From Methylophilus sp. 42 (GTDB lineage Bacteria > Pseudomonadota > Gammaproteobacteria > Burkholderiales > Methylophilaceae): DNA of 64,000 nucleotides. How positions within the stretch are numbered: position 1 is the first letter of the stretch; every line of letters begins with the position of its first letter. Made by a program: the position numbers and the translations under genes. The DNA is taken from the NCBI RefSeq assembly GCF_000384155.1, contig NZ_KB913031.1:1-64000 (forward strand), given 5' to 3'. The notes beneath the pieces are model-generated. The model saw nothing but the letters and a program-made list of their open reading frames with translations, made no database searches and had not been told where the DNA came from. Of this stretch, positions 30,839-52,893 are shown one piece after another.

Positions 30839-30897
30839 ATCATAACTACCTGAAAAGTGACTTTCTATTACCACTTAGGCTTACCCCATAAGTGGTA
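30839..30897 (-). promoter_or_regulatory. 7-2-7 box promoter of APC permease 1
   Basis: Minus strand: box TACCACTTATGGGGTA (30897-30882), 14 bp, -35 position TAGAA (poor), 18 bp, -10 TATGAT (30844-30839). The -35 is degenerate, as expected of an activator-dependent promoter. A second heptamer AGTGGTA lies within the 14-bp gap. The box could also serve the small rightward gene at 31005. Confidence 0.65.
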
Positions 30898-31004
30898 GCT
30901 GCAAGCCAATAAACATCAGATACACCGCGAATCGGAATTCAGGGGCTAAATAAATCCAGTGACTTTCAGGGAGGCGGTTTCAATCAATTAAAGAGGGTTT
31001 AGGG

Positions 31005-31244
31005 ATGAGAGTCATAGGAAAAAACGTATCAGACACAGGCCTGGAAATTGACATGATGCGATCAAGATTTAATAACGCTGTTGGTGATGGGCCTACTGGA
31101 GGCCTGCAAAAATATGCTCCTGGCGTTAGGGGGCAGGAGCGATATTACGATGATCAGACTAGAGTGAGAATCAAAGGTGCAGAAGCTGCCGAAGTGGCAG
31201 TTGAAATGCACCGCTTGATCAAGTTATTGCAAAACGCCAAATGA
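31005..31244 (+). CDS. small protein of unknown function (79 residues)
   Basis: Predicted 79-residue soluble protein, charged, with no signal peptide or motif I know; it contains VGDGPTGGLQKYAPGVRGQE and a helical, amphipathic end (AAEVAVEMHRLIKLLQNAK). An AGGG lies just before the ATG. Base composition and codon use look like the neighbours. It is divergent from the APC permease gene and shares its control region, which supports a real gene in the amine island, but the evidence is modest. Confidence 0.5.
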   Translation: MRVIGKNVSDTGLEIDMMRSRFNNAVGDGPTGGLQKYAPGVRGQERYYDDQTRVRIKGAEAAEVAVEMHRLIKLLQNAK

Positions 31245-31262
31245 GCTCAAGCTGCGTACGGC

Positions 31263-31901
31263 TTAAACCACCTTTTTAGTGTGTGCCCATACGGCGGCTT
31301 CCAGTCGGCTTGTTAATTTAAGCTTACTTAACAAATGCTTGATATGTACTTTTACAGTGGTGTCGCTGATACCTAAATGCCTTGCAATGGTTTTGTTATT
31401 AAGACCTCTGGCCAAGCACTCCAAAATTTCCCGTTCACGTTCGGTGAGGGAAACATCATCGTCTTGTTTATTCAAGGTCGGATTCACCAGCGCATTCTTC
31501 AGAATATCTGTCAGGCTTTCATGCAACACCGTGATGCCGGACATGGCTTTTTTCAAGCTTGCACACAAGTCCTCAGGCTCCATATCTTTCAATAAATAGC
31601 CATCGGCGCCAGCACGTAAAGCTTCCAGCAGATCATCCTCAGCATCAGAAACCGTCAACACAATACATTTCGTATCAAGTTTGGCTTCTTTGATCCGCGT
31701 CAGTGTTTCTATGCCATTCATGACCTTCATATTCAGGTCAATTAAAGCCAGCCCCGGTTTTAGCTGCTCGACCAGAGACAGCCCCTGTAACCCGGAGGCA
31801 GCCTCCCCAATCACATCGAACTCGGGATCCGAGGAAATCATCTGCATTACGCCTTTACGGAATAATGCGTGATCATCAATAATTACGACTGTCGTTGCCA
31901 T
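31263..31901 (-). CDS. NarL/FixJ-family response regulator
   Basis: A 212-residue two-domain regulator. The receiver has acidic residues D9/D10, phosphoacceptor D55 in LIDLNMKVMNG, the conserved T/S of CIVLTVSDAE and K105 region LKDMEPEDL. The C-terminal LuxR-type helix-turn-helix reads LTEREREILECLARGLNNKT followed by IARHLGISDTTVKVHIKHLL, which is characteristic of the NarL group. It lies 15 bp downstream of its kinase gene. NarL-type proteins bind heptamer pairs spaced by 2 bp, exactly the form of the boxes found before the island's operons, so it is the prime candidate for their activator. Confidence 0.93.
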   Translation of the reverse strand: MATTVVIIDDHALFRKGVMQMISSDPEFDVIGEAASGLQGLSLVEQLKPGLALIDLNMKVMNGIETLTRIKEAKLDTKCIVLTVSDAEDDLLEALRAGADGYLLKDMEPEDLCASLKKAMSGITVLHESLTDILKNALVNPTLNKQDDDVSLTEREREILECLARGLNNKTIARHLGISDTTVKVHIKHLLSKLKLTSRLEAAVWAHTKKVV

Positions 31902-31916
31902 TTTCTAACCCCATCT

Positions 31917-33764
31917 TTATTGTTTTATACCCTCATTTTTTGGTCGGAACACTAATCGCACCCGTGTTCCGCCTAATCGGCGAGGGATCACCTCAATTTC
32001 ACCACCCAGACAATGGGCGCGTTCGGTCATAATCGCCAGCCCATAATGGTGTGGCTTAGACTCATCAAACGCGGGACCAATCCCGTCATCATCCACCATG
32101 ACAATCACTTCGCCCGTGGACTGCAGTACTAACGACACTTTGACTTTCTCAGCGCCTGAGTGCCGCACAATGTTCGACAATGCCTCCCGGATAACGTGCA
32201 GCAAATGAAACTCTTCATTCACAGTCAACCGGCAATCTTGCAATCGGTTATCCAGCGCAATCGAGAGATTAGAACGGCTGGAAAACTCGCTAATGGTTTC
32301 CTCCAATACGTGATCCAGACCTCGCACATCCATTTGCACCCGGAATGTCGTTAATAACTCCCGCAATTCTTTGTAGGCATTATCCAACCCTTCACGGATA
32401 TCATTTGCAATTTCCGCGGCGTCTGAACTCACCCCCTCCTGATTGAAGATGCTCTGCAACCGTGCAAGCTGAAACTTCATATAGGACAACGACTGGGCGA
32501 GGGAATCATGTAACTCCCGCGCAATCACTGCGCGCTCCTCAAGCAAAGCCACACGTCTTCCCTCCTGCTCACGGGCCTGAAACCCCATGGCCATCGCCAC
32601 CATCTGCGAAGTGACTTCAATCAGCTGGATTTCCATGTCCTCAAAATAGTGGTTGGCATCGGTCTCGATGAGCAGAATACCTAGCCAGCCATTGGAGCTT
32701 GGCAATGGCACTGTCGTGTATTGAATGCACTCCCCCTGGATAAGCTTGGTCTCATGCGTCACTTCAAACATTTGCAGATCTTGATCAAACATACTTTTAT
32801 CGAAAGATAGCGGCATATACCCCGAAAAAAGGGCCCGATGTGAAGAAAAGCGTGAGCCGATATCACTGAACATTAAGGCGACGTTCTTCGCATCCAATGT
32901 TTTTTCCATCGAATAAAGCACCTTTTTCAGGGTGATTTCATTCAAGTCAGAATTTGCGATCAACCTCGCCAACTTAAGCAGGAAGTCTTGAGATAACAGT
33001 GTTTTTCGCGCTTTCTCAGTACTGATCTTATTGGTCCAGTTGCTCTCCGCCTGATAGCCCTCAATGCGGGCCGACATTTCTGCGGTGAGTTTCTCCAACT
33101 TTTCTAACTCATCGCCATAATGAAAATCTTTGCCCTCATTGATTAGATCACTCGGGATCAGCTCATAGATGCGTCCCAAACGGGTAATCAGGATGCGCCA
33201 GGCAGTGAGCATGATGCATGCACCAATACAAATAGCCAGAAAGACGCAAGCCAATTGCATGATTTGAACGACTGCCTGCTTGGCTTCTACATCGTCTTTT
33301 GACGCCTCAATAAACTCATCATAAGCCTCTACAATCAGTTTGCCTTTCAGCAGCGTTTGCTCTTTAGAAGCGCCATACAAGCAACACTTAACAAACGCTT
33401 GGTGCAAGTGGCTGAGCTTTTCATAGGCAGCGGCCAGGCGGGTATCACTCTGCTTTCTACTCCAGGCATACGTTGCATCATCAAAATTACTGATACTCAG
33501 GGAAATTTTGTAGGGTTCTGCGCCAACTTGAGTGGCAGAAGTCTCCAACTTATAGAGCTCTTGCTTCCATAACATTTGCTCGTTATAGGCCTGGGTGATC
33601 GTTGCCAAATGATTAGGGACATAATCAAATAAAAATAACGAGGTCGCCTGCATCAGCACGACGACAATCATCAATGAAGCAACGAGCACATGCATGCTGG
33701 CATATAGCTTGTGGCTATTAACGTACCTCTTTAATTTTCTAAAAAACACTAAAATATTTCGCAT
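31917..33764 (-). CDS. NarX/NarQ-like sensor histidine kinase
   Basis: A 615-residue membrane kinase: two transmembrane segments (about 24-46 and 167-190) enclosing a periplasmic sensor of some 120 residues, a linker/HAMP-like coiled coil, a GAF-like domain (about 265-390), a HisKA_3 phosphoacceptor helix VIARELHDSLAQSLSYMKFQ (His near 413) and an HATPase domain with IREALSNIVRHSGAEKVKV and DDDGIGPAF...YGLAIMTERA. The overall layout is that of NarX. The periplasmic P-box for nitrate is not evident, so the ligand is probably different; trimethylamine or dimethylamine is proposed from location. Confidence 0.9.
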   Translation of the reverse strand: MRNILVFFRKLKRYVNSHKLYASMHVLVASLMIVVVLMQATSLFLFDYVPNHLATITQAYNEQMLWKQELYKLETSATQVGAEPYKISLSISNFDDATYAWSRKQSDTRLAAAYEKLSHLHQAFVKCCLYGASKEQTLLKGKLIVEAYDEFIEASKDDVEAKQAVVQIMQLACVFLAICIGACIMLTAWRILITRLGRIYELIPSDLINEGKDFHYGDELEKLEKLTAEMSARIEGYQAESNWTNKISTEKARKTLLSQDFLLKLARLIANSDLNEITLKKVLYSMEKTLDAKNVALMFSDIGSRFSSHRALFSGYMPLSFDKSMFDQDLQMFEVTHETKLIQGECIQYTTVPLPSSNGWLGILLIETDANHYFEDMEIQLIEVTSQMVAMAMGFQAREQEGRRVALLEERAVIARELHDSLAQSLSYMKFQLARLQSIFNQEGVSSDAAEIANDIREGLDNAYKELRELLTTFRVQMDVRGLDHVLEETISEFSSRSNLSIALDNRLQDCRLTVNEEFHLLHVIREALSNIVRHSGAEKVKVSLVLQSTGEVIVMVDDDGIGPAFDESKPHHYGLAIMTERAHCLGGEIEVIPRRLGGTRVRLVFRPKNEGIKQ

Positions 33765-33817
33765 ATCACAAGCAGATTTTCTTATACTGATATTTTGATG
33801 TAACTAGGCAGCAGCAT

Positions 33818-35176
33818 ATGAGCATCTTTATATTTTCAACGATGATTATCAGTATTATTTACCTAATCGTCCTGGGTGCATGGCACAGCATTGAAGGTCC
33901 TTTTTTAGCACACTTGGCTATTCTGGTGACAATTGCCATCGCGATCTTTTCAGCAGCGCTGGTTTTTATTGTTCAACCCCTGTTTACCAAAGCCAGCACC
34001 AATAAAAAAAGTGAGTCTACACAACAACTTTCCTGGTTAAGAGAAACCTCCAACGCCTTGTCTTCCCCCGCTGTGCTGCTGGATGGCCTGATTGTGAAAT
34101 TTGCCAACACGCCCTTCCTGCGCACACTCGGTTTGGTCGGCCTCGAAGACCAGATCAAGGGCATGCCGTTCACCAACATCATTCATCCCGCCGACCACCA
34201 GATCTTTGCTGAACTCAATGCGGAAGCAGCCACCGGAAAGACCAAAAATGAATCTACCAATATTCGCCTGATTTCACTCGATGGATCGGCTATTCCTTCC
34301 AATGTCAGCCTCACCAAGATGCGTGAAGACAGGGATGCAAACCTCACTTTATTCCAATTTACACCGCTTTCTGCAGAACATACACTCAGCAGCCACTTTG
34401 ACCCTCAATTTAACTATCATTTCATCATCGACAAACTCGAGCAGATTGTTTTCCAGCTCAACTTTGAAGGCAAAATTGTCTTTTTAAACCCCGCCTGGGA
34501 AAGCTTTCTTGAGTACGCGATCAAGGACAGCCTCAATAAAACCATTTCTGACTTTGCGCACCCTGAAGACAAGCTCATGGTGGAGTCCAGACTTGAATCC
34601 GTTGCCTACGGCAGAAAGCCAAGTTTCACCATCGACTTGCGTTTAATCTCCCTCCAGGGGGAGTCCAACTGGTTCCGTTTGAGAGCCAGATCCTCCTCAA
34701 ATATTTCCGGCGAAAGAACCAGCGTTGTCGGCACCATTACCAATATTCAAGACATCAAGGATGCTGAAGCACAACACTCGGCAAACCGTCGTGCCGCCAA
34801 CGCCCTGCTCAGCCATATCCCGGGGATGATTTACCGTTGCAGACATGACAGATCATGGACCTTCGAATATGTCAGCGAAGGCTGTATTGACATCACTGGC
34901 TACGATTCACTGGATTTACTGCACGACCCTAGTCTTACCTATAACCTGATTATTCACCCGACGGATAGAGCGGCGGTTTGGAAGTTGATTAATCAGCAAA
35001 TCGCCGAAGATGAAACCTTCAATATTGTCTACAGGATCATTACCCGCAAGGGCGAAACAAAACTGGTGCAAGAAGTTGGGCGTGGCGTATTTTCAAGCAC
35101 CGGCGAGCTGTTGGCACTGGAAGGATTCATCACCGCGGTACCTGACAAACAACACCACGTTTCCACACTATCCTGA
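33818..35176 (+). CDS. membrane-anchored PAS-repeat protein without output domain
   Basis: A 452-residue protein with two N-terminal transmembrane helices (about 3-22 and 28-53) and three PAS domains (about 70-190, 205-325 with PAC-like WFRLRARSSSNISGERTSVV, and 335-445 with YRCRHDRSWTFEYVSEG and VYRIITRKGETKLVQEVGRG). It stops right after the last PAS domain; there is no kinase, GGDEF, EAL or HTH part. It is divergent from the NarX-like kinase with only 53 bp between, so it may be an accessory sensor for that system or a shortened kinase. No frameshift is visible downstream. Confidence 0.82.
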   Translation: MSIFIFSTMIISIIYLIVLGAWHSIEGPFLAHLAILVTIAIAIFSAALVFIVQPLFTKASTNKKSESTQQLSWLRETSNALSSPAVLLDGLIVKFANTPFLRTLGLVGLEDQIKGMPFTNIIHPADHQIFAELNAEAATGKTKNESTNIRLISLDGSAIPSNVSLTKMREDRDANLTLFQFTPLSAEHTLSSHFDPQFNYHFIIDKLEQIVFQLNFEGKIVFLNPAWESFLEYAIKDSLNKTISDFAHPEDKLMVESRLESVAYGRKPSFTIDLRLISLQGESNWFRLRARSSSNISGERTSVVGTITNIQDIKDAEAQHSANRRAANALLSHIPGMIYRCRHDRSWTFEYVSEGCIDITGYDSLDLLHDPSLTYNLIIHPTDRAAVWKLINQQIAEDETFNIVYRIITRKGETKLVQEVGRGVFSSTGELLALEGFITAVPDKQHHVSTLS

Positions 35177-35301
35177 CCATACAACGTCCTTATACAGAGA
35201 CCAGGCCTGATCGATACGAAGACCTGCCTGCTGGATCTGCGGCCAGCTAAATCCGCACGATCTCCCTTGCAAACCCACCACAACGTGGCAGCTAACCTAA
35301 T

Positions 35302-35337
35302 TTAAGCTAATCACTAGCACACTAGCCCTTAGCTTAA
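35302..35337 (+). other. hairpin after the PAS gene
   Basis: Inverted repeat TTAAGCTAA / TTAGCTTAA with 18 nt between, inside which CTAG occurs twice. No T run on either side. It may stabilise the end of the PAS transcript or act as a weak terminator. The whole gap 35177-35711 holds no protein gene; its other content is the promoter and hairpin described next. Confidence 0.35.
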
Positions 35338-35388
35338 GTCATGCTCGCGTTCGTGTAACCATTAAAGCTAAACGTGCCGGAGGGATTT

Positions 35389-35471
35389 GGGAGGCAATGA
35401 ACATTGCCTCCCTGGCAAGCCCATTCTCGTTTGTACTGTCACTTGAGAGAGGTAAAGTACAGTGAACTTGT
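35389..35471 (-). ncRNA. candidate small RNA (convergent gap)
   Basis: Downstream of a minus-strand 7-2-7 box promoter there is no reading frame. The predicted transcript (start about 35471) has a CTCTCTC stretch, an anti-ribosome-site-like feature, and ends in a 10-bp stem GGGAGGCAAT / ATTGCCTCCC (loop GAAC). Its promoter and first 15 nt (CACAAGTTCA) are similar to those of the 50.8-kb element, which ends in a GGGGAGGC hairpin. Unlike that one, no U run follows the stem, so the 3' end is uncertain. Confidence 0.45.
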
Positions 35472-35477
35472 GCTTTT

Positions 35478-35536
35478 ATTTTCAGGCTTAAGCAGGCGGG
35501 GGACAATTCCCATTTAGGATTACTCCCTTAGGAGTA
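35478..35536 (-). promoter_or_regulatory. 7-2-7 box promoter in convergent gap
   Basis: Minus strand: box TACTCCTAAGGGAGTA (35536-35521, nearly perfect dyad), 14 bp, TTGTC (35506-35502), 18 bp, GAAAAT (35483-35478). Same geometry as the tmd promoter. No gene follows on this strand for at least 300 bp except antisense to the end of the PAS gene. Confidence 0.65.
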
Positions 35537-35711
35537 TTTACATGCAGAACGTAAGATGGGCCTGACTATTTTTAAAAGCAAGACCGCTTAGAAAGACGAT
35601 GAATCTACAGAACATCCGTCAGCGACATCTGACGAATGCCTGAGATGCTGGAGTTACCTGGCGGATGACAACGGCACGGGAGCAGCCTGTTGATGTCTGC
35701 AAAGCTCAACG

Positions 35712-35972: not shown

Positions 35973-36020
35973 TTTTTTCCTATGTCGTTGATATGGCGTG
36001 ACGAACACCCGTCTTGTCAT

Positions 36021-37061
36021 TTATTCCGGATGTGACCCGTACTCCAATACTTCGCCATCATCAAACTGTGCAAGCCAGTCAATCACATAGCGGTGATAAC
36101 TCGTCATCCCCTTGTATTCAATCAAGTCTGGATGCAGGTCTTTTTGCACGCGGTGCAGACGCTTAGCCCATCGTGGATAGGTAGTGATATCTTTCAGGCT
36201 CATGAGGTAACACCTCACGCCAAATACAATCGCATTGCTACGCGGCAACCTGAACAGGCTCTGCAACTCAACGCGCAGGTTCACCAGCTCACCGACCGTC
36301 TCGTTATTGACCTTATTGCGGTCTATCGCCCATAGCGGGTAATTCTCTGGAGAAGTATCCAGCCGTGGATTCACGGTCATGGTCCAGTTCAGTCTACGCA
36401 CGGGATTCCCCACTTGCAGATTCAACAGGTATTTCAGGGCTCTATCCAACACGCCCAGCTCAGTCACCTTGGGCACTGGGCCATGCCATTCCTGCCATGA
36501 CATGCCGGTATTAAATGCCAATGACCAGTCAGCCTGACTGGTTACAATGCCTGCATCTGAATACAGGGTGCCATCCCGCTGATCCAGCAAGACAAAATCA
36601 CCTTGCATTTGACGCCCCATGTATTCGAATGGCTCTGAGGGCAGCGTGCTGGCATCACCAAAAGTGAAGGTATCCATGATGTCTAAAGGGCGATTTTCCC
36701 AGGTCCAGACGTTACCATTTTTGGTGAGCGTGAAATACTCAGGATAATCATTGGCCATGGAGGTCATCGCGAGTTCGAGAAAGTCCCACTGCGCATCCAT
36801 CATGTGCGGCAAGGCACTGTAACGGCCAGGGTCTTGTTCCAGTGTGATGATCTTGTCCAGGCACTCGGACACATAATGCTCATCCACATCAAATGTGAAC
36901 TCATACACGGATCCCTGCGCACCTTTGGTATGTGGCTCGATATTGACCGAATACATATAATGATCTTCGGCAAAAGGGAAAGGGAAACGCTTGATGGCTC
37001 CAGGGGAATTTTTGTAACTATAGTCATCCCGGAATGACTCATCATTGAAATTTAATTGCAT
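36021..37061 (-). CDS. heme-dependent oxidative N-demethylase (DUF3445), catalytic subunit of dimethylamine monooxygenase
   Basis: A 346-residue DUF3445-family protein. Landmarks: DAQWDFLELAMTSMANDYPEY, ENRPLDIMDTFTFGD, MGRQMQGDFVLLDQRDGTLY, WSLAFNTGMSWQEWHGPVP and the C-terminal RSNAIVFGVRCYLMSLKDIT. Members bind heme and remove methyl groups oxidatively. With the DmmA-like and DmmB-like genes just upstream it forms the set known from dimethylamine monooxygenase operons: DMA + O2 + NAD(P)H to methylamine + formaldehyde. I cannot settle which published letter (dmmC or dmmD) this subunit bears, so no symbol is given. Confidence 0.88.
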   Translation of the reverse strand: MQLNFNDESFRDDYSYKNSPGAIKRFPFPFAEDHYMYSVNIEPHTKGAQGSVYEFTFDVDEHYVSECLDKIITLEQDPGRYSALPHMMDAQWDFLELAMTSMANDYPEYFTLTKNGNVWTWENRPLDIMDTFTFGDASTLPSEPFEYMGRQMQGDFVLLDQRDGTLYSDAGIVTSQADWSLAFNTGMSWQEWHGPVPKVTELGVLDRALKYLLNLQVGNPVRRLNWTMTVNPRLDTSPENYPLWAIDRNKVNNETVGELVNLRVELQSLFRLPRSNAIVFGVRCYLMSLKDITTYPRWAKRLHRVQKDLHPDLIEYKGMTSYHRYVIDWLAQFDDGEVLEYGSHPE

Positions 37062-37105
37062 GTTTATCGCCTTAATTCGAATAAGAAATGAATGGTGTGC
37101 AGGGC

Positions 37106-38059
37106 TTATAAATCCAATACCAAGCGTTTACCTTTGGTACGCGAAACGCATGGCATGATGCTTCTACAGGACACTTTTTCCGAGTCAGACAAATAGTGAT
37201 CATGATGCTCGATACCACCATCCGTTTCGAGGACCGTGAGCTCACAGCGACCGCAAACGCCCCCACGGCAGAGCGAATCCGCTTTGACACCCGCCGCTTC
37301 AATCGCCTCCAGCATGCTCATTTCCGCGGGCACCTGAATTTCGATATCAGACTTGGCCAGTTGCACCTTGAACGGTTCGCCTACAGGCGGCGAGGAGAAC
37401 TCTTCGTTATGAATATTGTTCTCAGGCCAACCCAGGTTTCTGGCAGTCTCCAGCACAGCAACCACCATGGGAGACGGACCACACACATAGACATGAGAGC
37501 CCAGTGGCTGCTGGCTTAACAGCGCATTCAGGTCAATACGCTCGCCTTGACTGTCGGCATAGCAATGCAAGTGGCCCTCACACATTTCTTCCAGTTCATT
37601 GACAAAAGCGGCCTGCTCATAAGCGCGAAATGCGTAATGCAGTTCATAGTCTGCACCTACCCTTTTGAGGTCTTCTATTTGAGACATGAAGGGGGTAATG
37701 CCGATGCCACCTGCGATCAGGATATGCTTATGCGCCAGCTTGGACAGTGAAAAAAGATTCACCGGGTGTGTGATCTTCAGGCGCATGCCGACATGCACAT
37801 GCTCGTGCATAAACAAGGAGCCGCCACGTGAGCTTTCCTGGCGCCGCACAGAAATATGATAAGCCTGGGTATCTGTAGGCGACCCCATCAGGGAATAGGG
37901 ATTCCTGTATGTTCTCCCCTCTGCATCCATCGTCACCACGATATGGCTGCCACCTGAAAATGAGGGCAGCTCAGAACCATCTTCATGCACCAGGGTAAAG
38001 TGCTTAATTAACGGTGTCACGGCCTCAATGGCAGCGACTTTTACATTGATTGTACTCAT
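37106..38059 (-). CDS. dmmB: dimethylamine monooxygenase reductase subunit (PDR/VanB family)
   Basis: A 317-residue phthalate-dioxygenase-reductase-type protein: flavin domain (YRNPYSLMGSP, the RxYS-type motif), NAD-binding domain (LIAGGIGITPFMSQIEDL) and a C-terminal plant-type [2Fe-2S] domain (SLCRGGVCGRCELTVLETDG, final Cys in the terminal region CVSRTKGKRL preceded by CRSIMPC). It carries electrons from NAD(P)H to the heme subunit. Its start overlaps the end of the DmmA-like gene by 4 bp. Confidence 0.88.
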   Translation of the reverse strand: MSTINVKVAAIEAVTPLIKHFTLVHEDGSELPSFSGGSHIVVTMDAEGRTYRNPYSLMGSPTDTQAYHISVRRQESSRGGSLFMHEHVHVGMRLKITHPVNLFSLSKLAHKHILIAGGIGITPFMSQIEDLKRVGADYELHYAFRAYEQAAFVNELEEMCEGHLHCYADSQGERIDLNALLSQQPLGSHVYVCGPSPMVVAVLETARNLGWPENNIHNEEFSSPPVGEPFKVQLAKSDIEIQVPAEMSMLEAIEAAGVKADSLCRGGVCGRCELTVLETDGGIEHHDHYLSDSEKVSCRSIMPCVSRTKGKRLVLDL

Positions 38060-38658
38060 GGATAAATCTCCTCAATCGCAGGCAACTCCCCTGGAGACTC
38101 TGCATCAACCATCAAGCCCATATACGCGCCCAGATTTCTTGAAAAATGGTCACGCACAAACAGCATGCGCTCACAGCCACAACAGGCAGTAATATTGGTT
38201 GTGACATACTTGGAAATGGTTTTGCAGTGCACACAGTACACACTGCGGGCCAGGGTATCGGCCTGCTCTTTCATGATTTCCATTTCCTGGATACCAAACG
38301 GTTTAGCCGCCGCGACCACATCCCAGATAAACCCTTCTGAACCGGCCACATAGATTCGCAAGCCCATTTGCGCATCGCGCAGTTCAAGCTGAAACTGCGT
38401 CAACAAGGCGTCGTCAAATTTATGTATATGCAGACCTTCGGGCACAACCATCTTTAAGGTGTCTGAATAATCCGCGTCCATCTGCCCATACTTTCCATAC
38501 AGTACTTTGACCGGTTGTGTCGGGTGCATTTGCTGAAACAACTTGAGAACTGCCATACCGCCTATGCCAGTGGCAAGCACCAGGTGTGAAGTCGCCTTCT
38601 CATGCCACTTTAAAGATGTATAGACAGGTTTACTTTTAATCCAATACCCACGTTCCAT
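38056..38658 (-). CDS. dmmA: dimethylamine monooxygenase subunit DmmA-like
   Basis: A 200-residue protein with a nucleotide-binding-like N-terminal part (SHLVLATGIGGMAVLKLFQQ, YGKYGQMDADYSDTL, YVAGSEGFIWDVVAAAKPFG) and a C-terminal four-cysteine knuckle (YCVHC and CCGC) followed by LFVRDHFSRNLGAYMGLMVD and an acidic end. This composition is what I know as the DmmA family. Start at 38658 (MERGYW) is chosen since an AAGAGA is 5 nt upstream; the open frame reaches 17 codons further. First gene of the unit, behind a 7-2-7 box promoter. Confidence 0.82.
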   Translation of the reverse strand: MERGYWIKSKPVYTSLKWHEKATSHLVLATGIGGMAVLKLFQQMHPTQPVKVLYGKYGQMDADYSDTLKMVVPEGLHIHKFDDALLTQFQLELRDAQMGLRIYVAGSEGFIWDVVAAAKPFGIQEMEIMKEQADTLARSVYCVHCKTISKYVTTNITACCGCERMLFVRDHFSRNLGAYMGLMVDAESPGELPAIEEIYP

Positions 38659-38751
38659 ATTTATCTCTTCAATTAACCATACGCTGAGCACCGCGCCAGA
38701 GCCAACCATCGTGAATGTGGCATCTGAGATATCCGCAGCACCTTTGCAGCA

Positions 38752-38810
38752 AGACTAAAGCAAGCAGGTGTTGGCGAAAATTATCTTGAAGTTGTACTCC
38801 CAAAGGGGTA
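38752..38810 (-). promoter_or_regulatory. 7-2-7 box promoter of the dimethylamine monooxygenase operon
   Basis: Minus strand: box TACCCCTTTGGGAGTA (38810-38795), 14 bp containing CAACTTCA, -35 position TTTTC (38780-38776), 18 bp, -10 TAGTCT (38757-38752). About 90 nt of leader precede the DmmA-like start. The box and gap are nearly identical to those of the next element at 38.95 kb. Confidence 0.65.
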
Positions 38811-38833: not shown

Positions 38834-38941
38834 AAAAAAGAAGGGCACTTATATGTGCCCCTGTGAAGGATGGTTGAACGATCCCTGCCGTATGAAATGC
38901 AGCCTAAATGCAAACCAATACTGACGAAAAAGCATCGTGAC
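38834..38941 (-). ncRNA. candidate small RNA between etfA and the dmm operon
   Basis: A closed transcription unit of about 105 nt with no convincing reading frame: a minus-strand 7-2-7 promoter, then a terminator with stem GGGCAC / GTGCCC (38843-38860) and TTCTTTTTT. The middle carries CCATCCTTCAC, a possible pairing site for ribosome-binding regions. A 70-residue frame crosses it but begins within the promoter and runs through the terminator, so I do not call it a gene. Confidence 0.5.
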
Positions 38942-38947
38942 ATGTAA

Positions 38948-39006
38948 AGAGTAAGCTCATTGTGCACACTTGCAAATGATCATGAAGTTGTACTTCCAAA
39001 GAGGTA
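38948..39006 (-). promoter_or_regulatory. 7-2-7 box promoter of the 38.9-kb small transcript
   Basis: Minus strand: box TACCTCTTTGGAAGTA (39006-38991), 14 bp (CAACTTCATGATCA), TTTGC, 18 bp, TACTCT (38953-38948). It follows the etfA terminator directly and precedes a terminator 90 bp later. Confidence 0.6.
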
Positions 39007-40855: not shown

Positions 40856-42277
40856 TTACTTCGTTACTAGAAATGTATCGGGCATTTTCAGGCAGATATT
40901 TGCTGCCCACCGATATACCGAAAACCTGACCTGGAAGTCTGGATCATCCCGCAGACTCCACTTGTCCTGTGCTTGCAAATGAGGGTTGTGTACGAGCAAC
41001 ACGCGGTGCAAGTAGTAAGGGTCCTCAAGTAAGGGCAGCAAGGTATTGCGTGTTGCTGACTTATTTAAAATCACCCCTCTTCTCACATCCGTGTCACTCG
41101 AACCGACCAACGCCTTCAAAATACTTTGTGGCGTATTGGGGTTGTTTGCCACGCCACTTAATACATCCACATCCTTGTCATCCGCCAGCTTCATCAGGAT
41201 TCTTTGTGATGCATTGACCTGGTAGGCCACCCCGGACCGCACCCAAGCACTTGTGTCCTCCGCGAGCATATTGAGCAAATGCACCGTACTCATTGAGTTA
41301 CGTGCTACGGCCCGCCTGACATCTGCGACTGCATCCACAGCAAGCCGGTACAACACATCCAGTGATGTGGTCGGGCTGCGCGCAATTCTCTGCCTGACCC
41401 AGATGTCATCATCTCTGGACAAGGCCTCAATGTGCTCTTCCGACAAATCAATACGCGAAGCCACTTCACGCCTGACCAACTCACATTTATCCTTAATCAA
41501 GTGACGAAAGAGGGCGACCGGCGTTAACGCGTTAGCCGCAACGCCCGCCCTCACGCCTGCATCCTCACAGGCTGCATAACGTTGCAGGCTCTCTTTACTC
41601 ACCCGGCGATTCCTGGCCAGCACGCGCATCATCAACACTTCTTCACTGGCCGCAGCTTTCGCAATCAACCAAGCCGGGCAATTGGCATGTCCGAGGATGG
41701 CTGCCTGTGTATACACCTCCGATGCATCAAATATCCTTGTCAGCAACTCAGCAGAGGCCGATGCGTTCTGGGCAATATTTTTGTGGATGGCCACTGCGAT
41801 ATCACTCCCAGAGGCACGCTCCGACAACTCCGCCAGCACCTTGGCATTCGCTGCGGGGTTTTTACTCAACGCCAACAAGCATTCACTATCGTTGGCGTGG
41901 AGTGCGATCCTTCTTAAAACCTCCGTCCCACTGTTTAAGTGTTGCGCGATGAGCTTGGTGAGTCCGGCCTTGTCCTTGCTGCGCGCCTCTTCGTACAGGC
42001 CGGATAGCACGCTGGATGACGTTCCAGGGTTTTTATCCAGCCGCAGTTCAATCGCCTCATCGTGAACGCCTGCTAATGCGGTGAGTACCGATGCCGGTGT
42101 ATGCTCCCAGCGGGCAATGGCTAACGCCGTTCGCCTTGTGCCGCAAATCAGCGCTTCTAATTCGAGCTTTGTGATCCCTGTTGCCAGCTCATGCACAGCA
42201 GCGGCAACATATGGGTCTCTCGATTTAATCGATAACTGCACCAGCGCATCAGCACTCCCAAACATCATGCATCTCAC
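40856..42277 (-). CDS. LRV (leucine-rich variant)/HEAT-like repeat protein in the ETF operon
   Basis: 473 residues made almost wholly of about 24-residue helical repeats of the LRV kind, with recurring pattern VRxxVAxNxxTPxxxLxxLA: e.g. VRAGVAANALTPVALFRHL, VRRAVARNSMSTVHLLNML, VLSGVANNPNTPQSILKALV. No catalytic motif, no signal peptide, no membrane helix. It begins at GTG overlapping the Fe-S gene stop by 4 bp (ATG codons 3 and 4 codons later are alternatives) and precedes etfB by 16 bp. Probably a scaffold or maturation factor for a flavo- or Fe-S protein in the operon; not known to me as characterised. Confidence 0.82.
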   Translation of the reverse strand: MRCMMFGSADALVQLSIKSRDPYVAAAVHELATGITKLELEALICGTRRTALAIARWEHTPASVLTALAGVHDEAIELRLDKNPGTSSSVLSGLYEEARSKDKAGLTKLIAQHLNSGTEVLRRIALHANDSECLLALSKNPAANAKVLAELSERASGSDIAVAIHKNIAQNASASAELLTRIFDASEVYTQAAILGHANCPAWLIAKAAASEEVLMMRVLARNRRVSKESLQRYAACEDAGVRAGVAANALTPVALFRHLIKDKCELVRREVASRIDLSEEHIEALSRDDDIWVRQRIARSPTTSLDVLYRLAVDAVADVRRAVARNSMSTVHLLNMLAEDTSAWVRSGVAYQVNASQRILMKLADDKDVDVLSGVANNPNTPQSILKALVGSSDTDVRRGVILNKSATRNTLLPLLEDPYYLHRVLLVHNPHLQAQDKWSLRDDPDFQVRFSVYRWAANICLKMPDTFLVTK

Positions 42278-44545: not shown

Positions 44546-46768
<2,223 letters not shown>

Positions 46769-46782
46769 TCAAACTATGTGTC

Positions 46783-46841
46783 ATTTTCATAGTGATACCC
46801 AGGAGAGACAATTACACTCATGGCTTACTACTTAGGTGTTA
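46783..46841 (-). promoter_or_regulatory. 7-2-7 box promoter of the tmd operon
   Basis: Minus strand: box TAACACCTAAGTAGTA (46841-46826), 14 bp (AGCCATGAGTGTAA), TTGTC (46811-46807), 18 bp, GAAAAT (46788-46783). Predicted transcript start about 46776, leaving a 38-nt leader with AAGGAG before the ATG. Best-founded member of the promoter set, since tmd is inducible by methylated amines in Methylophilus. Confidence 0.7.
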
Positions 46842-46913
46842 CTCAGTAGCGCTTGACTTTTAAGCATGCAATGCTGGTGAAAATATTGCTTTAAACTTTG
46901 CGCATCAGAGGGG

Positions 46914-48611
46914 TTAAAGTTGATCGGTATACCAGACCACAAGAATGGCAACGGCAATGGTGACGTAAGGCAGGTGCTCGAAGAGTTTTGTATATCTTGG
47001 CCGATTCACTTGTACCTGCATGTCGCTTAGCAACTGCGTCGGGAATACGCCTTTATCTTCAAAATAATGGCGGTAAATGAATAAGGGCACGATGAGGGAA
47101 GAAAAGAAGAGCCCAGTCCTTAACGTGCCCTCGCCCCAAATTTCCGTACCCATCCCCATGATGACCAAGTTGAGGTAGCCAAGCAGCACGCCTGCGCCCA
47201 TCAAGATATTTGGTGTTTTATAAGGCCGCTCCCAATGCGGCCTGTCCATGCGATGGATCCAGCCGGCATTCAACACCAGAAAATGATAGATGATATACGC
47301 CACGTTGGAAGCCGCTAGCACAAACACATAATCCGACATCATGAGCAGGATGAGGTTATAGGAAAGGTCTGTCCACATCGCCCTGGTCGGCGAACCATTC
47401 TCATTGACCACAGATAAATACTTGGGCAACAAACCATCCACTGAGGCTTGGTAAAGTGTTCTGGCCGAACCTGACATGGTGGTCATAATCGCCAGAAGCA
47501 AGGTGATGATGAGCATCACCACCATGATATTGGCGATGATTGCGCCGCCACCGACAATCGAAGCCAGCGCACTGGCCACCCCATTCCCCTTATAAATATT
47601 GGCAGCGAGCATGCCGTCGTACATGGCCGGTGACTTCACTTCCCCTGCATCCCCGATCACAGCAGGCACCACCAACTCCCCTAGCCCCAAGTGACTTTGA
47701 AACGCAATCGGCACCAAGGTAAACACGGCCATACAGAGCAATGCGGAATAGACAATCGCCTTGAAGGTATCCGCCTTGGGATCCTTAAACTCACGCGTGT
47801 AGCACAACGCCGTTTCAAACCCATAAGTGGACCATGCTGCTACAAATAATCCGCCAGCCATCAGCTTCCAGCCATCCAGATTCCAGTCGCCATCTATGAC
47901 ATTGCCGTCCATGTCGTATGCTAATGGCGTGAGCGGAAAGAAATGTTCGCTGGCCAGGTCGCCAGTGACAAAAGGCACCAGTCCAATCAACAACAATGGG
48001 ATGAGCGCCACTAACCCCAACACCATGGTGGTGCTGACTGAGCGTAAAATACCACCGTGCTGCACGGCGAACACCAGCAATAGAAAGGTGGCGCCCAGAA
48101 TGAAGGTTGCATTGATTCTCAGGCTGAGGCCCGCCTTGATCGTACTTAAATCCAGCAACGTGATTTGCCAGGTATTGATCAGCGAGTTTGCATCAAACAG
48201 GATGCTTAACGAGTAGCCTGCGGCTAAACCTGAGCCAATCGCCAGTACCGGCGACCAGGCGGCCCAGTTACACCATACATTCAATGTAGCAATAAACTTG
48301 CTGTAGCGTATCCAGGCAACCGCACTATGGATGGACAACCCGCCAGACTTATGTGGGAACAGTCCGGCAATCTCCGCATAAGTAAAAGCCTGGATAAAAC
48401 CAAAGCTAATCGAGACCATCCACACCAGCCAGGCCGGCTTACCGACGGTTGCCGCGACAGCGCCTAGGGTGAATAAGACCAGCCCCGGCACCCCGCTTGC
48501 AATCCAAAAGGCGCCCTTCCAGCCAATGCCTCTATGCAAACCAGTTTTGGCTGCTGGTGCCTGACTGGCGAGATCAGCCGCTACGGAATGATCAGAAGAG
48601 GATAAAGTCAC
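46914..48611 (-). CDS. APC-superfamily permease, candidate methylated-amine importer (copy 2)
   Basis: 565 residues, same layout and close sequence to the 28984 gene: GAFWIASGVPGLVLFTLGAV, FTYAEIAGLFPHKSGGLSIH, AAWSTYGFETALCYTREFKD, GSARTLYQASVDGLLPKYLS and HWERPYKTPNILMGAG. It has about 12-13 helices. It follows ribBX in the same direction after 79 bp, so it lies in the cofactor operon upstream of tmd. Two copies may handle different amines or concentrations. Confidence 0.85.
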   Translation of the reverse strand: MTLSSSDHSVAADLASQAPAAKTGLHRGIGWKGAFWIASGVPGLVLFTLGAVAATVGKPAWLVWMVSISFGFIQAFTYAEIAGLFPHKSGGLSIHSAVAWIRYSKFIATLNVWCNWAAWSPVLAIGSGLAAGYSLSILFDANSLINTWQITLLDLSTIKAGLSLRINATFILGATFLLLVFAVQHGGILRSVSTTMVLGLVALIPLLLIGLVPFVTGDLASEHFFPLTPLAYDMDGNVIDGDWNLDGWKLMAGGLFVAAWSTYGFETALCYTREFKDPKADTFKAIVYSALLCMAVFTLVPIAFQSHLGLGELVVPAVIGDAGEVKSPAMYDGMLAANIYKGNGVASALASIVGGGAIIANIMVVMLIITLLLAIMTTMSGSARTLYQASVDGLLPKYLSVVNENGSPTRAMWTDLSYNLILLMMSDYVFVLAASNVAYIIYHFLVLNAGWIHRMDRPHWERPYKTPNILMGAGVLLGYLNLVIMGMGTEIWGEGTLRTGLFFSSLIVPLFIYRHYFEDKGVFPTQLLSDMQVQVNRPRYTKLFEHLPYVTIAVAILVVWYTDQL

Positions 48612-48690
48612 GGTGAGGGGCCCAATAGGCGATGCTGGCGATCAGAACCATCTGCGTTTTTTGGTTTATTTAGCGTGTGAAAAACTCAAA

Positions 48691-49875: not shown

Positions 49876-49885
49876 GATTGCCCTC

Positions 49886-50683
49886 CTACAGGTCCTGGCT
49901 CGTAATACAGGCGTACGCCGAATGATTGTGAATAGACTCAAAGTTTTCACACTCAACAACAAAACTCTTGATACGGGCTTCCTTGTAAAAGGCCGTGGCA
50001 ATATCCCGCACCATGTCTTCGACAAACTTAGGGTTGTCGTAGGCGAACTCCGTCACATATTTCTCGTCAGGTCGTTTTAACAACCCATACAGTTCAGAAG
50101 ACGCCTGCATTTCTACTAAACGGATGACATCTTCGACCCACATCAATGTATTGAAAGACACCGTCACCGTCACATGGGAGCGTTGATTGTGGGCACCATA
50201 GGCAGATATCTTTTTTGAGCAAGGGCAGAGGCTAGTTACTGGGATCAGTATCTTGACTTTGACGTCATGCCCGGCCTCTGAAATCTCACCGATAAAGGTA
50301 ACATCGTAATCAAGCAGACTTTTGACGCCAGAGACGGGTGCAGCCTTATTCACAAAGTAGGGAAACGCCATTTCAATATAGCCAGTTTTAGCTTCTAGCC
50401 TGAGAGCCGTTTCATGTAGAAGCATGTAAAAACTCTCTAGCGAGATTTCACGCTCAATATGATTAAGAATCTCGATGAAACGGGACATGTGCGTCCCCTT
50501 AAAGTGTTGCGGCAATTGCACATACATATTCAACAGTGCAATCGTTCCTTGGGCATCACCAGACTTATCTTTAACTTTAACCGGATGACGAATCGCCTTA
50601 ATACCAACTTTATCGATCGCTAACTGACGACCATCAGCAAGGTTTTGAACATCTTCTATGGGTAATGGGAGTGGTGAATTCAA
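49886..50683 (-). CDS. folE2: GTP cyclohydrolase FolE2 (type IB)
   Basis: 265 residues. Converts GTP to dihydroneopterin triphosphate, entry to folate-type pterins. Typical features: [33 protein letters not shown], the metal-binding [20 protein letters not shown] and [18 protein letters not shown]. Type IB works with metals other than zinc. First gene of a folE2-ribBX-APC unit, 10 bp before ribBX. Tetrahydrofolate (or a related carrier) accepts the formaldehyde from TMA and DMA, which explains the location. Confidence 0.93.
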
Positions 50684-50761
50684 AATAATGCTCTTTTCTC
50701 AATCAAGTGATTGTCAGTGACGAGGTCTTCATTGCTCTCATAACCATTCCTGTACACCCTC

Positions 50762-50853
50762 AAAAAAATGGGGAGGCCAACTGGCATTAGCCTCCCCTCA
50801 TAGTGCAAGTTCAACTCGGATGTGAGGGGAAATCAGGTTATTTCTGAACTTGA
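50762..50853 (-). ncRNA. candidate small RNA or terminator-leader of folE2 operon
   Basis: A transcript predicted from the 7-2-7 promoter would start near 50853 and meet a strong terminator: stem GGGGAGGC / GCCTCCCC (50770-50777 and 50790-50797), then seven T (50768-50762). Inside, CAAGTTCA pairs perfectly with TGAACTTG, and the loop between contains TTTCCCCTCACATCC, complementary to ribosome-binding sequences. It lies 80-170 bp before folE2, so it may be either an independent RNA of about 90 nt or an attenuator. No reading frame and no FMN or folate riboswitch consensus is seen. Confidence 0.58.
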
Positions 50854-50859
50854 GATTGA

Positions 50860-50918
50860 ATTTTCAAACTTGTGAGCAACCATGACAATTGTCATTAAGG
50901 ATTACTCCGTAAGGATTA
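50860..50918 (-). promoter_or_regulatory. 7-2-7 box promoter upstream of folE2
   Basis: Minus strand: box TAATCCTTACGGAGTA (50918-50903), 14 bp (ATCCTTAATGACAA), TTGTC (50888-50884), 18 bp, GAAAAT (50865-50860). From the box to the -10 it aligns with the element at 35.5 kb. Confidence 0.68.
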
Positions 50919-50977
50919 CTTAAGTCTTATACGTCAGGATTGATTAGGCGGGATAAAAAGAGTGAGCAGAAACGAAA

Positions 50978-51008
50978 CATTCCACGTAATAGGCCATTAC
51001 GTGGAATG
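50978..51008 (-). terminator. terminator of the amine-island cupin gene
   Basis: Long perfect stem CATTCCACGTAAT / ATTACGTGGAATG with a 5-nt loop, then TTTCGTTT on the minus strand, 30 bp past the cupin stop. Confidence 0.8.
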
Positions 51009-51037
51009 TGGATCAGGAGGTGAAACTTGAAGCGTTA

Positions 51038-51388
51038 TTACAGAGGCGCACGTTGGCCAGTGAAGAAACCAACCGCTTTATCCGGTGTGCTGAAAGTCAC
51101 ATTGCTGCCTGCTGGGAAATACAATACATCACCCACGGTTGCAGTCACTTTTTGACCTGTGTCATCAGAAATGATGAAAGTGCCTGCCACTACGATTTTC
51201 ATTTCTTCGTAATCATATGAGTAGCTTAATTCATTACCGGCATGCAGGTGGAAGAAACCAGCACAGATGGTTTTGTCTTTATCTTGAGAGACGAATGTAT
51301 CGCCCAGGAAAGCTGGTACATTCGGCACATTCATTGAAGGCTGGTCATCTTTAATAGCCTGTTTTTTAAATTGAAACGGTTTACTCAT
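51038..51388 (-). CDS. small cupin (EutQ-like) of the methylated-amine island
   Basis: 116-residue single cupin. FFHLHAGNELSYSYDYEEMK and VAGTFIISDDTGQKVTATVG-DVLYFPAG (two parts) give the double cupin motif; the overall look is similar to the ethanolamine-utilisation EutQ cupin. The first-motif histidines are partly replaced by Asn/Tyr/Glu. It is a single gene with its own 7-2-7 box promoter and a strong terminator, with AAAGGAG 8 nt before the ATG, which suggests high expression. Function unknown; formaldehyde or amine binding are mere possibilities. Confidence 0.8.
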   Translation of the reverse strand: MSKPFQFKKQAIKDDQPSMNVPNVPAFLGDTFVSQDKDKTICAGFFHLHAGNELSYSYDYEEMKIVVAGTFIISDDTGQKVTATVGDVLYFPAGSNVTFSTPDKAVGFFTGQRAPL

Positions 51389-51425
51389 TACAGTTCTCCT
51401 TTGGGGTTACTTGAAAAGTGTTTGT

Positions 51426-51484
51426 ATTAAATCGCTTTCAAAATGAACCGACAATTACACCTAAGGGGTACTCTCAAAGAAGCA
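51426..51484 (-). promoter_or_regulatory. 7-2-7 box promoter of the cupin gene
   Basis: Minus strand: a weak distal box at the standard position (51484-51469, TGCTTCTTTGAGAGTA), overlapped by a better proximal dyad TACCCCTTAGGTGTAA (51470-51455) that touches the -35 TTGTC (51454-51450). Then 18 bp and -10 TTTAAT (51431-51426). Confidence 0.62.
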
Positions 51485-51660
51485 TAAGCAAGAACGTGCT
51501 GTTGAATCGAACAGGATGGCTTTGACCGGCACGTAAATAGAGAGCAAGGATGGACGGCATGACCTGAGTCAAGCCAGCCAGACGAAAAAAGGCCTCCTGC
51601 TGATGAGAAAAAGCGCAGGAGGCCAGGGAAAAACCGTATGAATGAAGATTGCGTTAGCGC

Positions 51661-52500
51661 TTAGAACGTATGCTTTATGTAGCCATAAAACCTGCTTTTA
51701 TCAAGGTCGTCACCCGATGCATCGACATACCAGCCTTTTTTGGTAATAGAGTGGATGTAGCTAACACCGGCATTCCACCCCTTCGAGCCGGCAAATTCGA
51801 ATGCGCGACTAATCCCGACTGACATATCCGTGTAGTTGCCAACGCTGTAATTTTCAACCACCTGATGTCCGATGTGAATATTATAGTTGGTATCCGTGGT
51901 GGGGACTTTGCCGGTGTAATTGACATCAATGTAGTTTGTTCCTCTGGAGCTACCATGCCCGACAGGCTTTCCTCGGTAGGTGGTTGTGCCAAGAGAATTG
52001 GTGTTATACCCGAACCAGTCCGTCAATGCCTGGTAGTACTTCACATTCAAGCCTTTGTAGTCGACCTTTAGAATCATCTCGACCACGTCGGAATTTTCAC
52101 CTGTAAACGTATAACCTTGGGGATAGGTAAAATTGAAGATCTCGCCAGTGATCGCAAGGTCTTCTGTAATGGCTTTTCTATACCCAACGTAATAATCTGT
52201 CTCATAGGTGTTGCCGTAAACCGCATCTCTATGCACAGTCCCGTAACCAAACCCGGCATAAAATCCACTGTCATGCGAATAATCGATGCTCGCATAAAAC
52301 TGACCGTGTTTTGCGAATGACAAGCCCCTGAACAAGTAATCACTATACGCACCCGCCGTCATCGACCAGTGGTGTGGCGAACTCTTTGCCCCACTTTGCT
52401 CTTCGTTATCACGCTGCACGGCCTCTTCAGCCAGTGCTACAGAACTTCCTCCAAACGCCAGGAAGAAGCTACAGACTATGATTCCTTTACTCTTTTCCAT
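51661..52500 (-). CDS. TorF-family putative outer-membrane porin
   Basis: 279 residues. Signal peptide (IIVCSFFLAFGGSSVALA) and a beta-barrel ending in Phe (RFYGYIKHTF). The strand AGAYSDYLFRGLSFAKHGQF is the signature of the TIGR02001 / Gcw_chp family called TorF, often near trimethylamine N-oxide genes. ATG at 52500 has AGGGAG 4 nt upstream; the frame is open for 7 codons more. Likely lets methylated amines or related small solutes through the outer membrane. Confidence 0.85.
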   Translation of the reverse strand: MEKSKGIIVCSFFLAFGGSSVALAEEAVQRDNEEQSGAKSSPHHWSMTAGAYSDYLFRGLSFAKHGQFYASIDYSHDSGFYAGFGYGTVHRDAVYGNTYETDYYVGYRKAITEDLAITGEIFNFTYPQGYTFTGENSDVVEMILKVDYKGLNVKYYQALTDWFGYNTNSLGTTTYRGKPVGHGSSRGTNYIDVNYTGKVPTTDTNYNIHIGHQVVENYSVGNYTDMSVGISRAFEFAGSKGWNAGVSYIHSITKKGWYVDASGDDLDKSRFYGYIKHTF

Positions 52501-52585
52501 GTACTCCCTTTCAAATCGCATATCATATTTTTAATAATTACTTATTACTGACCGATGCCTAAAAGGTGAGGCTATTCGCCAAGAT

Positions 52586-52644
52586 TGATTATTTGAACTA
52601 CGTTGAATACTTTTATTTTTTGAACTTGTACTCACTTCATCTTT
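52586..52644 (-). promoter_or_regulatory. possible 7-2-7 box promoter of the TorF porin
   Basis: Minus strand: box AAAGATGAAGTGAGTA (52644-52629), of which only the proximal heptamer GTGAGTA is good, 14 bp (CAAGTTCAAAAAAT, resembling CAACTTCA in the dmm promoter), then poor -35 and -10. Weakest member of the set. Confidence 0.35.
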
Positions 52645-52834
52645 TATTGAATATCCTCAACAACTCCTGGTCGCCATCAGCAAATAAATAGTGCAATGAT
52701 GCAATTCAACAATAGCGAGGTTATTTTTTTAAATATAGAAAGAACTGGCATGCAGTTGCATTTAGAACTACCGCGATGACTGTGATGCCACTTTTTACTA
52801 CCACCTGCCGGTTTTTACCATTCCCACTAAGTCT

Positions 52835-52893
52835 TAATACCTTTGAAGTATTGCCGGGGTGTATTTTTCGAGATAAGTTAACCCTCCTACATA
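52835..52893 (+). promoter_or_regulatory. 7-2-7 box promoter of the AraC-family gene
   Basis: Plus strand: box TAATACCTTTGAAGTA (52835-52850), 14 bp ending GTGTAT, TTTTC (52865-52869), 18 bp, TACATA (52888-52893). It is 120 bp before the AraC-type ATG. The rest of the 52501-53012 divergent region is A/T-rich and holds further TAC half sites (52788, 52816), but no gene. Confidence 0.5.

Follow-up and report, generated by a model that had tools for sequence, protein, structure and literature searches.

The amine gene cluster and its repeated promoter module

The window analyzed here is a stretch of 64,000 nucleotides from Methylophilus sp. 42 (contig NZ_KB913031.1, positions 1 to 64,000), which carries a methylated-amine gene cluster in which one promoter module recurs at several places (Table 1). 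Pfam and NCBIfam annotated in this cluster two APC permeases, the second of which (46914-48611) passes the model for permeases of trimethylamine N-oxide (TMAO), together with a NarL-like response regulator, a HisKA_3 sensor kinase, a PAS protein, the dmm genes, a Tmd-like flavoprotein, ribBA, folE2, an EutQ-like cupin, a TorF-type porin and an AraC-family gene. The flavoprotein gene is presumably tmd, for the textbook enzyme trimethylamine dehydrogenase, as judged by its domain composition.

A sequence-only reading of the window had described the module as a 16-bp dyad of two heptamers 2 bp apart (7-2-7), followed by 14 bp, a TTGTC-like -35 element, 18 bp and a GAAAAT-like -10 element. At tmd, this layout was found both in the sequence itself and with a 59-column matrix (effective number 10) prepared, as a guard against circularity, from 17 tmd promoters of other genera and with the spacer columns set to zero. 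The training set comprised 21 tmd promoters less those of G000, G115 and G075, which belong to the same genus, and that of G031, where no module lies directly before tmd; not counted among the 21 were weaker Tmd homologues and the Tmd locus of G045, where the sequence has a run of N. Twelve stretches of 20 kb (240 kb) from the same genome served as the background, and a third-order Markov simulation served as the null.

Nine places had been proposed to carry the module, and seven of these were among the ten best matches in the window, with the gap at 35.5 kb, folE2 at 50.9 kb, APC permease 1, dmm, the cupin and 52.84 kb showing the same register as tmd. The copy at 38.95 kb came only thirteenth, and the porin site proposed at 52.6 kb was absent from the 25 window matches listed. 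The site at 52.84 kb scored higher toward the porin than toward araC. The remaining places among the first thirteen were 46826(+) (score 7.7, rank 6), which is the tmd box in backward reading, 51423(-) (6.6, rank 8), which sits at the cupin start codon, the unrelated 9444(+) (0.1, rank 11), which the sequence-only reading had not named, and 52821(+) (-3.0, rank 12). The araC-side 16-mer (TAATACCTTTGAAGTA) recurs unchanged at G000:C1:1994623, where the matrix score is only -1.6.

The background maximum was 0.47, as against 59, 37 and 35 for tmd, the gap and folE2, which bears out the claim that the fixed spacing is not due to chance; the proposed matrix scan, run on this background and on loci of other Methylophilaceae, did not hit random DNA at a comparable rate. 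The Markov null gave, per window, 0.034 matches of at least 5.8, 0.13 of at least 1.9 and 1.1 of at least -4.9. The dmm module is therefore marginal on its own score, and the 38.95-kb copy taken alone is at chance level. The dmm module is backed by conservation in relatives, and the 38.95-kb copy, whose first 33 bases are identical to the dmm promoter at 29 positions, is probably, judging by this match, a duplicate of that promoter. Such a pair might be taken to mean that all of the repeats arose as promoter copies scattered by recombination, with no common regulator, but this is exceedingly improbable: the spacers carry 0.2-0.5 bits versus ~0.95-1.36 bits for the box, gap and -35 element (a contrast favoured by the site-choosing matrix, which ignores the spacer), and the same gene classes carry the module across genera.

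The 16-bp box alone is not rare, giving 70 forward matches in the genome at up to one mismatch versus 180 for the reversed control, and on these counts it was rejected as a genome-wide signature. The whole module is specific, with four pattern matches in the same genome, every one of them inside the window.

Table 1. Features of the window in order of position; ranks of the matrix scores within the window are in brackets.
Feature	Position	Strand	Matrix score (rank)	Remarks
Module before APC permease 1	30839..30897	-	8.9 (5)	
NarL-like response regulator	31263..31901	-		Receiver and LuxR/GerE helix-turn-helix; proposed regulator
HisKA_3 sensor kinase	31917..33764	-		NarX/NarQ-like kinase half; two hydrophobic transmembrane (TM)-like segments; lacks nitrate motif
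PAS protein	33818..35176	+		Two TM-like segments; divergent from kinase
Candidate small RNA 1	35384..35471	-		Hairpin with unpaired CUCUCUC, then GGGAGGCAAU/AUUGCCUCCC hairpin, no T run; z -3.96
Module in 'gene-free gap'	35478..35536	-	37.2 (2)	Points to structured stretch 35.38-35.47 kb
dmm genes	36021..38709	-		HODM-type dimethylamine oxygenase
Module before dmm operon	38752..38810	-	1.9 (10)	Same class in relatives
Candidate short RNA 3	38834..38941	-		Ends at terminator 38841-38862; z -2.99
Weak module copy, 38.95 kb	38948..39006	-	-4.9 (13)	
tmd	44546..46738	-		Presumed trimethylamine dehydrogenase
Module before tmd	46783..46841	-	59.1 (1)	Distal 7-2-7 46826-46841, proximal 46812-46827, -35 TTGTC 46807-46811, -10 GAAAAT 46783-46788
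Candidate small RNA 2	50763..50853	-		Hairpin with CCCCUCACAUCC (partly paired in model), strong terminator 50770-50797 and T7; z -5.12
Module assigned to folE2 by the sequence-only reading	50860..50918	-	35.3 (3)	Predicted to read first into short terminated RNA
Module before cupin	51426..51484	-	5.8 (9)	Left heptamer (TACCCCT) better in the proximal 7-2-7
Two-way site between porin and araC	52792..52893	.	14.5 (4), 6.8 (7)	52.85(-) toward porin, 52.84(+) toward araC
AraC-family gene	53013..54023	+		Rejected as common regulator

Occurrence of the module among relatives

Genomes of the family Methylophilaceae (150 in total) were searched for the regulator (E<1e-80), for Tmd (at least 85% identity) and for a module pattern of 34 bases (at most three mismatches), the reversed pattern being the control. 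The regulator was detected in 28 of the 150 genomes and Tmd in 22, with both present in 20; the next regulator matches were paralogues at ~1e-50, and a weaker match of some kind was obtained in all 150. All 28 regulator-positive genomes contained the module pattern (78 sites), as did both tmd-positive genomes in which the regulator was not found. The pattern also occurred in 13 of the 120 genomes with neither regulator nor tmd, as 14 sites that each had two to three mismatches, and the reversed control gave 24 sites over the 150 genomes, six of them in the 28 regulator-positive ones. Eight genomes were regulator-positive but tmd-negative, all with the module, and in the tmd-less genomes examined it stood ahead of APC permeases and GcvT-like dmmD-type genes.

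Among the 21 tmd promoters the box, the 14 bp and TTGT were in register in 20, and the -10 element was so too in 19, being off by one in G007. In G031, modules were found before the upstream APC genes and an FeS gene. The exact 18-bp step to the -10 element is thus tight at tmd, as had been claimed, and looser for the APC permeases (mean -10 information 0.64 bits for APC versus 1.27 bits). The loci of relatives contained 99 matches scoring at least 3, eight of which were in G075 of the same genus. None lay inside a recognised gene, such genes covering 51% of the scanned DNA, and 86 were located at most 1300 bp upstream of a recognised gene on the same strand. G099, one of the tmd-less genomes, carries a module (5.7) before tmm, encoding trimethylamine monooxygenase (NCBIfam 833.9 versus a cut-off of 675), and another (29.4) before a TMAO-demethylase-like (tdm-like) gene (1043.5, under the cut-off of 1100). 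Taken together, these data support the proposal of a methylated-amine regulon with a common regulator and with spacing conserved across genera. Weak module scores (3.8 and 3.0) were obtained for Hyphomicrobium zavarzinii; because the DNA fetched from more distant holders of the regulator lacked the module, the link between regulator and module is limited to the Methylophilaceae and, weakly, H. zavarzinii.

Several further observations were made in these loci. Globin genes (Pfam Globin or Bac_globin) are preceded by the module at L074:15152(-) (43.8), L070:5511(-) (11.5) and L091:17291(+) (9.3), which suggests a link to oxygen or nitric oxide. A variant with TGGAC for TTGTC stands before a Tmd paralogue of 63-65% identity, probably dimethylamine dehydrogenase, at L080:5888, L058:8861 and L175:13765, and also in H. 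zavarzinii. A regulator paralogue of 40% identity lies beside a Dmd-like gene at G117:C1:1672057-1677329 and G140:C26:15815-21087 and is perhaps part of a sister system. The loci L178, L179 and L181-L183 (Ferrovum metagenome-assembled genomes (MAGs), a Burkholderiaceae contig and Cupriavidus) combine regulator and PAS-like genes with amine-type genes in module-free fetched DNA, and here the operator may have drifted. Finally, a leucine-rich-repeat-variant protein is encoded at window 40856-42277, flanked by the FeS protein gene and the etf genes, and occupies the same place in those loci of relatives that cover the stretch.

The proposed regulator and its predicted operator

The NarL-like regulator passed the NCBIfam NarL model (273 bits, cut-off 250), and its closest match in the PDB was NarL 1a04 (E 9.3e-64), the recognition helices reading TVKVHIKH in the regulator and TVKVHVKH in NarL. 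The protein is nearly identical to its counterparts in M. methylotrophus DSM 46235 and Methylophilus sp. QUAN. The NarL heptamer consensus TACYYMT, taken from PMC4886647 and not derived from these sites, was slid along 76 non-redundant modules, a few of which represent a single place read on the other strand as well. The four top mean fits were at columns 1, 10(-), 15 and 24(-) (5.49, 5.72, 5.11 and 4.70 of 7, respectively), with 4.38 at the next-best column and ~2.5 expected at random. The targets therefore carry TACYYMT in the 7-2-7 arrangement of NarL-type sites and, because the heptamer fits pair as 1-16 and 15-30, the 14-bp 'gap' is itself a second 7-2-7 site. The two sites are offset by 14 bp and overlap by 2 bp (a shared TA), and the proximal one, which is the weaker, abuts the -35 element.

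If transcription is taken to begin 7 nt past the -10 element, the sites are centred near -57.5 (distal) and -43.5 (proximal). A placement suited to class II activation had been claimed for the visible palindrome, which near -57.5 is too far away to act in this manner alone; it is the second, weaker 7-2-7 site that fills the class-II-like place. Logos were prepared from non-redundant rows (<85% identity) above the class score limits, and those of the cupin promoters showed stronger conservation of the proximal site than of the distal one (gap 1.08 bits versus box 0.95 bits).

The common regulator is most likely the NarL-like protein rather than the AraC-family protein. The gene for the latter belongs to the cluster and begins close to a module, and in Ruegeria the AraC-family protein TmaR is a master regulator of trimethylamine (TMA) catabolism through the Tmm pathway, according to the available text of PMC13390433, so that the AraC-family protein here could by analogy be the common activator. 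This is very improbable given its distribution, on which it was rejected: homologues (E≤1e-40) were not conserved with the regulon, being present in 6 of the 28 regulator-positive genomes versus 8 of the 122 others, and by coordinates they lay inside the cluster only in G000, G075 and G115. Moreover, AraC-type operators are direct repeats, unlike the inverted repeat found here, which fits NarL.

The sensor kinase and the PAS protein

The regulator, kinase and PAS protein were linked in all 27 loci compared. The kinase has a NarX/NarQ-type layout, with a HisKA_3 kinase half behind a helical domain that lies between two TM-like segments, and a structure model of modest quality (mean pLDDT 73.3, pTM 0.38) placed helices at residues 18-77 and 133-200. 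In profile comparisons the likeness to NarX/NarQ was mainly in the kinase half. The scores against the curated NarX and NarQ models (211.8 of 578 and 228.8 of 553 bits) passed neither, and a fold search returned kinase-domain matches, with no NarX/NarQ chain among the best 50 of 1126.

Nitrate is bound in NarQ by a G-x-x-R motif, as described in the available part of PMC8199190. Within the first 130 residues, G-x-x-R[MLI] was found in none of the 29 family kinases, which thus lack this P-box signature, whereas in the kinase alignment GSLRM is present in both NarX and NarQ of E. coli. The sequence AGSLFL in TM1 was considered as a P-box with Phe in place of Arg and was dropped, as MAFFT pairs INKAGSLRM of NarX with ITQAYNEQM further on; the profile comparisons leave the AGSLFL/P-box region of the kinase unaligned. 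The regulator and kinase were not filed as NarX-NarL because the nitrate motif had been looked for and was absent. A true NarX-NarL system answering nitrate, which would tie amine oxidation to nitrate respiration, agrees with a regulator that clears the NCBI NarL cut-off and a box that fits the NarL consensus, but is quite improbable in view of the missing motif, of a kinase that resembles NarX/NarQ chiefly in the kinase part and scores far short of the cut-offs, and of the placement of all four own-genome module matches in the amine cluster.

Residues F43, D46, Y47, Q62, W65, W100 and Y147 were conserved in 84-100% of 25 kinases (the four most divergent of the 29 being left out). Of these, F43, D46, Y47, W65, W100 and Y147 could conceivably hold a methylammonium cation.

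Candidate small RNAs

The sequence-only reading had placed one module before folE2 and one in a gene-free gap, which calls for a correction: both promoters are predicted to read into structured RNAs of ~90-110 nt before any gene, and the 38.95-kb promoter perhaps does likewise. Downstream of the folE2 module, where a TTGTCA-17-GAAAAT promoter was also found independently, a GC-rich hairpin with a T run begins ~55-85 nt past the -10 element, with a UCUCC-like stretch ahead of it. The small RNA 1 unit is present also in G075 and G115, and therefore in three Methylophilus genomes, with no folE2 behind it. It was not scored as a terminator under a rule allowing loops up to 8, and its 3' end is less sure because the hairpin has no T run. 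Short RNA 3 has a full-length match in G115 (94.8%) and none in G075. Rfam 15 gave no match at the gathering score across the whole window.

The pyrimidine stretch was predicted to be fully unpaired in 17 of 22 such units and partly or wholly paired in the three folE2-linked RNAs of the same genus and in G045 and G062. Fold z scores were -2.2 or lower in 18 of the 22, and above -2 in G006 (-0.8), G140 (-0.1), the folE2-linked unit of G075 (-1.5) and G055 (-1.9). Thirteen units were non-redundant, of which 11 contained UCUCC, the window's own contained CCCUC and that of G062 contained CUCC. A terminator was present in all 13 once the rule had been widened, for units and controls alike, from loops of at most 8 to loops of at most 69; the narrower rule had found the right hairpin only in the folE2 unit of the window and had called both gap units terminator-free. 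The widened rule was applied to these 13 of the 22 units, near-duplicates and three gap units being left out, and the end-finding step had cut the G006, G140 and G031 units ahead of their terminators. Alignment of the RNA hairpins misaligned the outer stems and no covariation is claimed.

It could be that the folE2-linked unit is a cis-acting attenuator of folE2 and that there is no separate small RNA. The unit lies 221-315 bp before folE2 in the compared genomes and, by inspection, the CUCC stretch could pair with the GGAGG arm of the terminator. Nevertheless, this explanation is rather unlikely, as units with no folE2 behind them exist at 35.5 kb here and in G062, where a terminated unit (L115:4417-4809) starts from a strong module (29.7) and the only folE2 match is ~1.8 Mb away. 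In addition, 30 folE2 genes distant from the module (26 in regulator-negative and four in regulator-positive genomes) had neither UCUCC nor such a hairpin within 330 bp upstream. For these control genes UCUCC was the only variant sought, and on an equal footing the counts with UCUCC are 11 of 13 units versus 0 of 30 controls. The copy number of folE2 is compatible with both readings, at least two genes being present in 14 of the 16 genomes searched and a single one, outside the cluster, in the other two. An open frame of 105 amino acids with no Pfam match starts within the G062 unit, which may represent an RNA or a small protein, a coding role being possible.

The candidate small RNAs, each recognised by promoter, fold and terminator features, are probably base-pairing regulators. 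A literature search for small RNAs of this kind produced nothing on point, and a term look-up in the available text of the review PMC10992012 was empty. A 15-pair hairpin at window 50977-51009, between the cupin and the RNA-2 module, is probably the cupin terminator.

Discussion

We consider it highly probable that the two-component system of the cluster acts at the module, through a NarL-like regulator that activates the methylated-amine genes. In such a mechanism a methylated amine, or a product of one, would be sensed by the HisKA_3 kinase, perhaps together with the PAS protein, and the kinase would phosphorylate the regulator, as its family suggests. Regulator dimers would then bind the distal site near -57.5 and the weaker one near -43.5, and from there would recruit RNA polymerase to the weak -35 elements at tmd, dmm, the APC permeases and the cupin and, in relatives, also at dmd-like, tmm, tdm-like and globin genes. 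The short structured RNAs, whose pyrimidine-rich (CUCC-like) stretch may act by base-pairing, would be made from promoters of this kind too.

A number of points weigh against this interpretation. The dmm and 38.95-kb modules are each weak alone, the genomes counted are related and the counts therefore are not independent, and the matrix itself had picked the sites behind the logos and the heptamer fits. Paired NarL dimers on sites 14 bp apart with a 2-bp overlap, as the operator would require, are not known, and no module was seen before the kinase gene, which is separated from the divergent PAS gene by 53 bp. Distant holders had no module in the fetched DNA, the best scores being -15.6 in a Hyphomicrobium MAG (L176), -14.0 in Pseudogemmobacter (L177), -5.3 in Ferrovum (L178), -12.0 in Burkholderiaceae (L179) and -19.7 in Cupriavidus (L181); for Ferrovum L182 and L183 the best was -13.1, the tmd promoter being outside the fetched DNA. 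The Dmd-like gene of G117 is accompanied only by the 40% regulator paralogue and has a weak match (5.7) at 615 bp upstream.

A more far-reaching version, which we put forward tentatively and as somewhat doubtful, is that NarX-NarL has been retooled for methylated amines, with a sensor that lacks the nitrate arginine motif and has an aromatic/acidic cation pocket, an overlapping double operator and, among its conserved outputs, a CUCC-like small-RNA family that retunes how other genes are translated during growth on amines. If the sensor does bind methylammonium, NarX/NarQ would be a solved framework for a change from anion to cation sensing, and the small RNAs, if true, would add a post-transcriptional layer to methylotrophy. 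The proposal gives the TMA-dehydrogenase genes a regulator, an operator, a regulon that extends across both known routes of TMA oxidation, and a sensor amenable to testing. Because the regulator passes the NCBI NarL cut-off, annotation pipelines may label it 'NarL, nitrate'.

Control of small RNAs by a regulator of this family has a parallel in GacA, a NarL/FixJ-family protein that controls RsmY/Z, although the GacA box and the GGA-motif RNAs are unlike the CUCC-bearing RNAs described here. The statement that TMA-dehydrogenase genes have no described regulator was not contradicted by the literature searched on regulators of TMA dehydrogenase, dmm, Methylophilus and the LuxR type, a search mostly outside the subscription journals, in which only TmaR and TmoR of the Tmm pathway were described for TMA catabolism. 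These two proteins of Ruegeria pomeroyi resemble the present case in the coordinated control of TMA, dimethylamine and downstream genes, but belong to the AraC and GntR families and regulate Tmm rather than a TMA dehydrogenase, and the available text (PMC13390433) contains none of the words 'two-component', 'motif' and 'palindrom'. AgmR/PedR1 and PedS2-PedR2 of Pseudomonas alcohol oxidation are likewise LuxR-type response regulators in an oxidation cluster, but serve other genes and signals, and the available part of PMC12997753 gives no operator for them. The E. coli NarX/NarQ-NarL system, acting at ogt and yeaR, is alike in its NarL-like regulator, in all but one of the eight recognition-helix residues, in the heptamer and in the 7-2-7 arrangement. 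At ogt the NarL sites are at -44.5 and -77.5, 33 bp apart, and the proximal one abuts the -35 element as it does here (PMC7419079, available text), whereas the second site of the present module is only 14 bp away and overlaps the first by 2 bp. Unlike NarX/NarQ of E. coli, the sensor lacks the nitrate motif, is accompanied by an extra PAS protein and has methylated-amine genes as its targets. The mechanism is NarL-like, and novelty lies in the proposed regulon, in the changed sensor, in the overlap of the operator sites and in the candidate RNAs.

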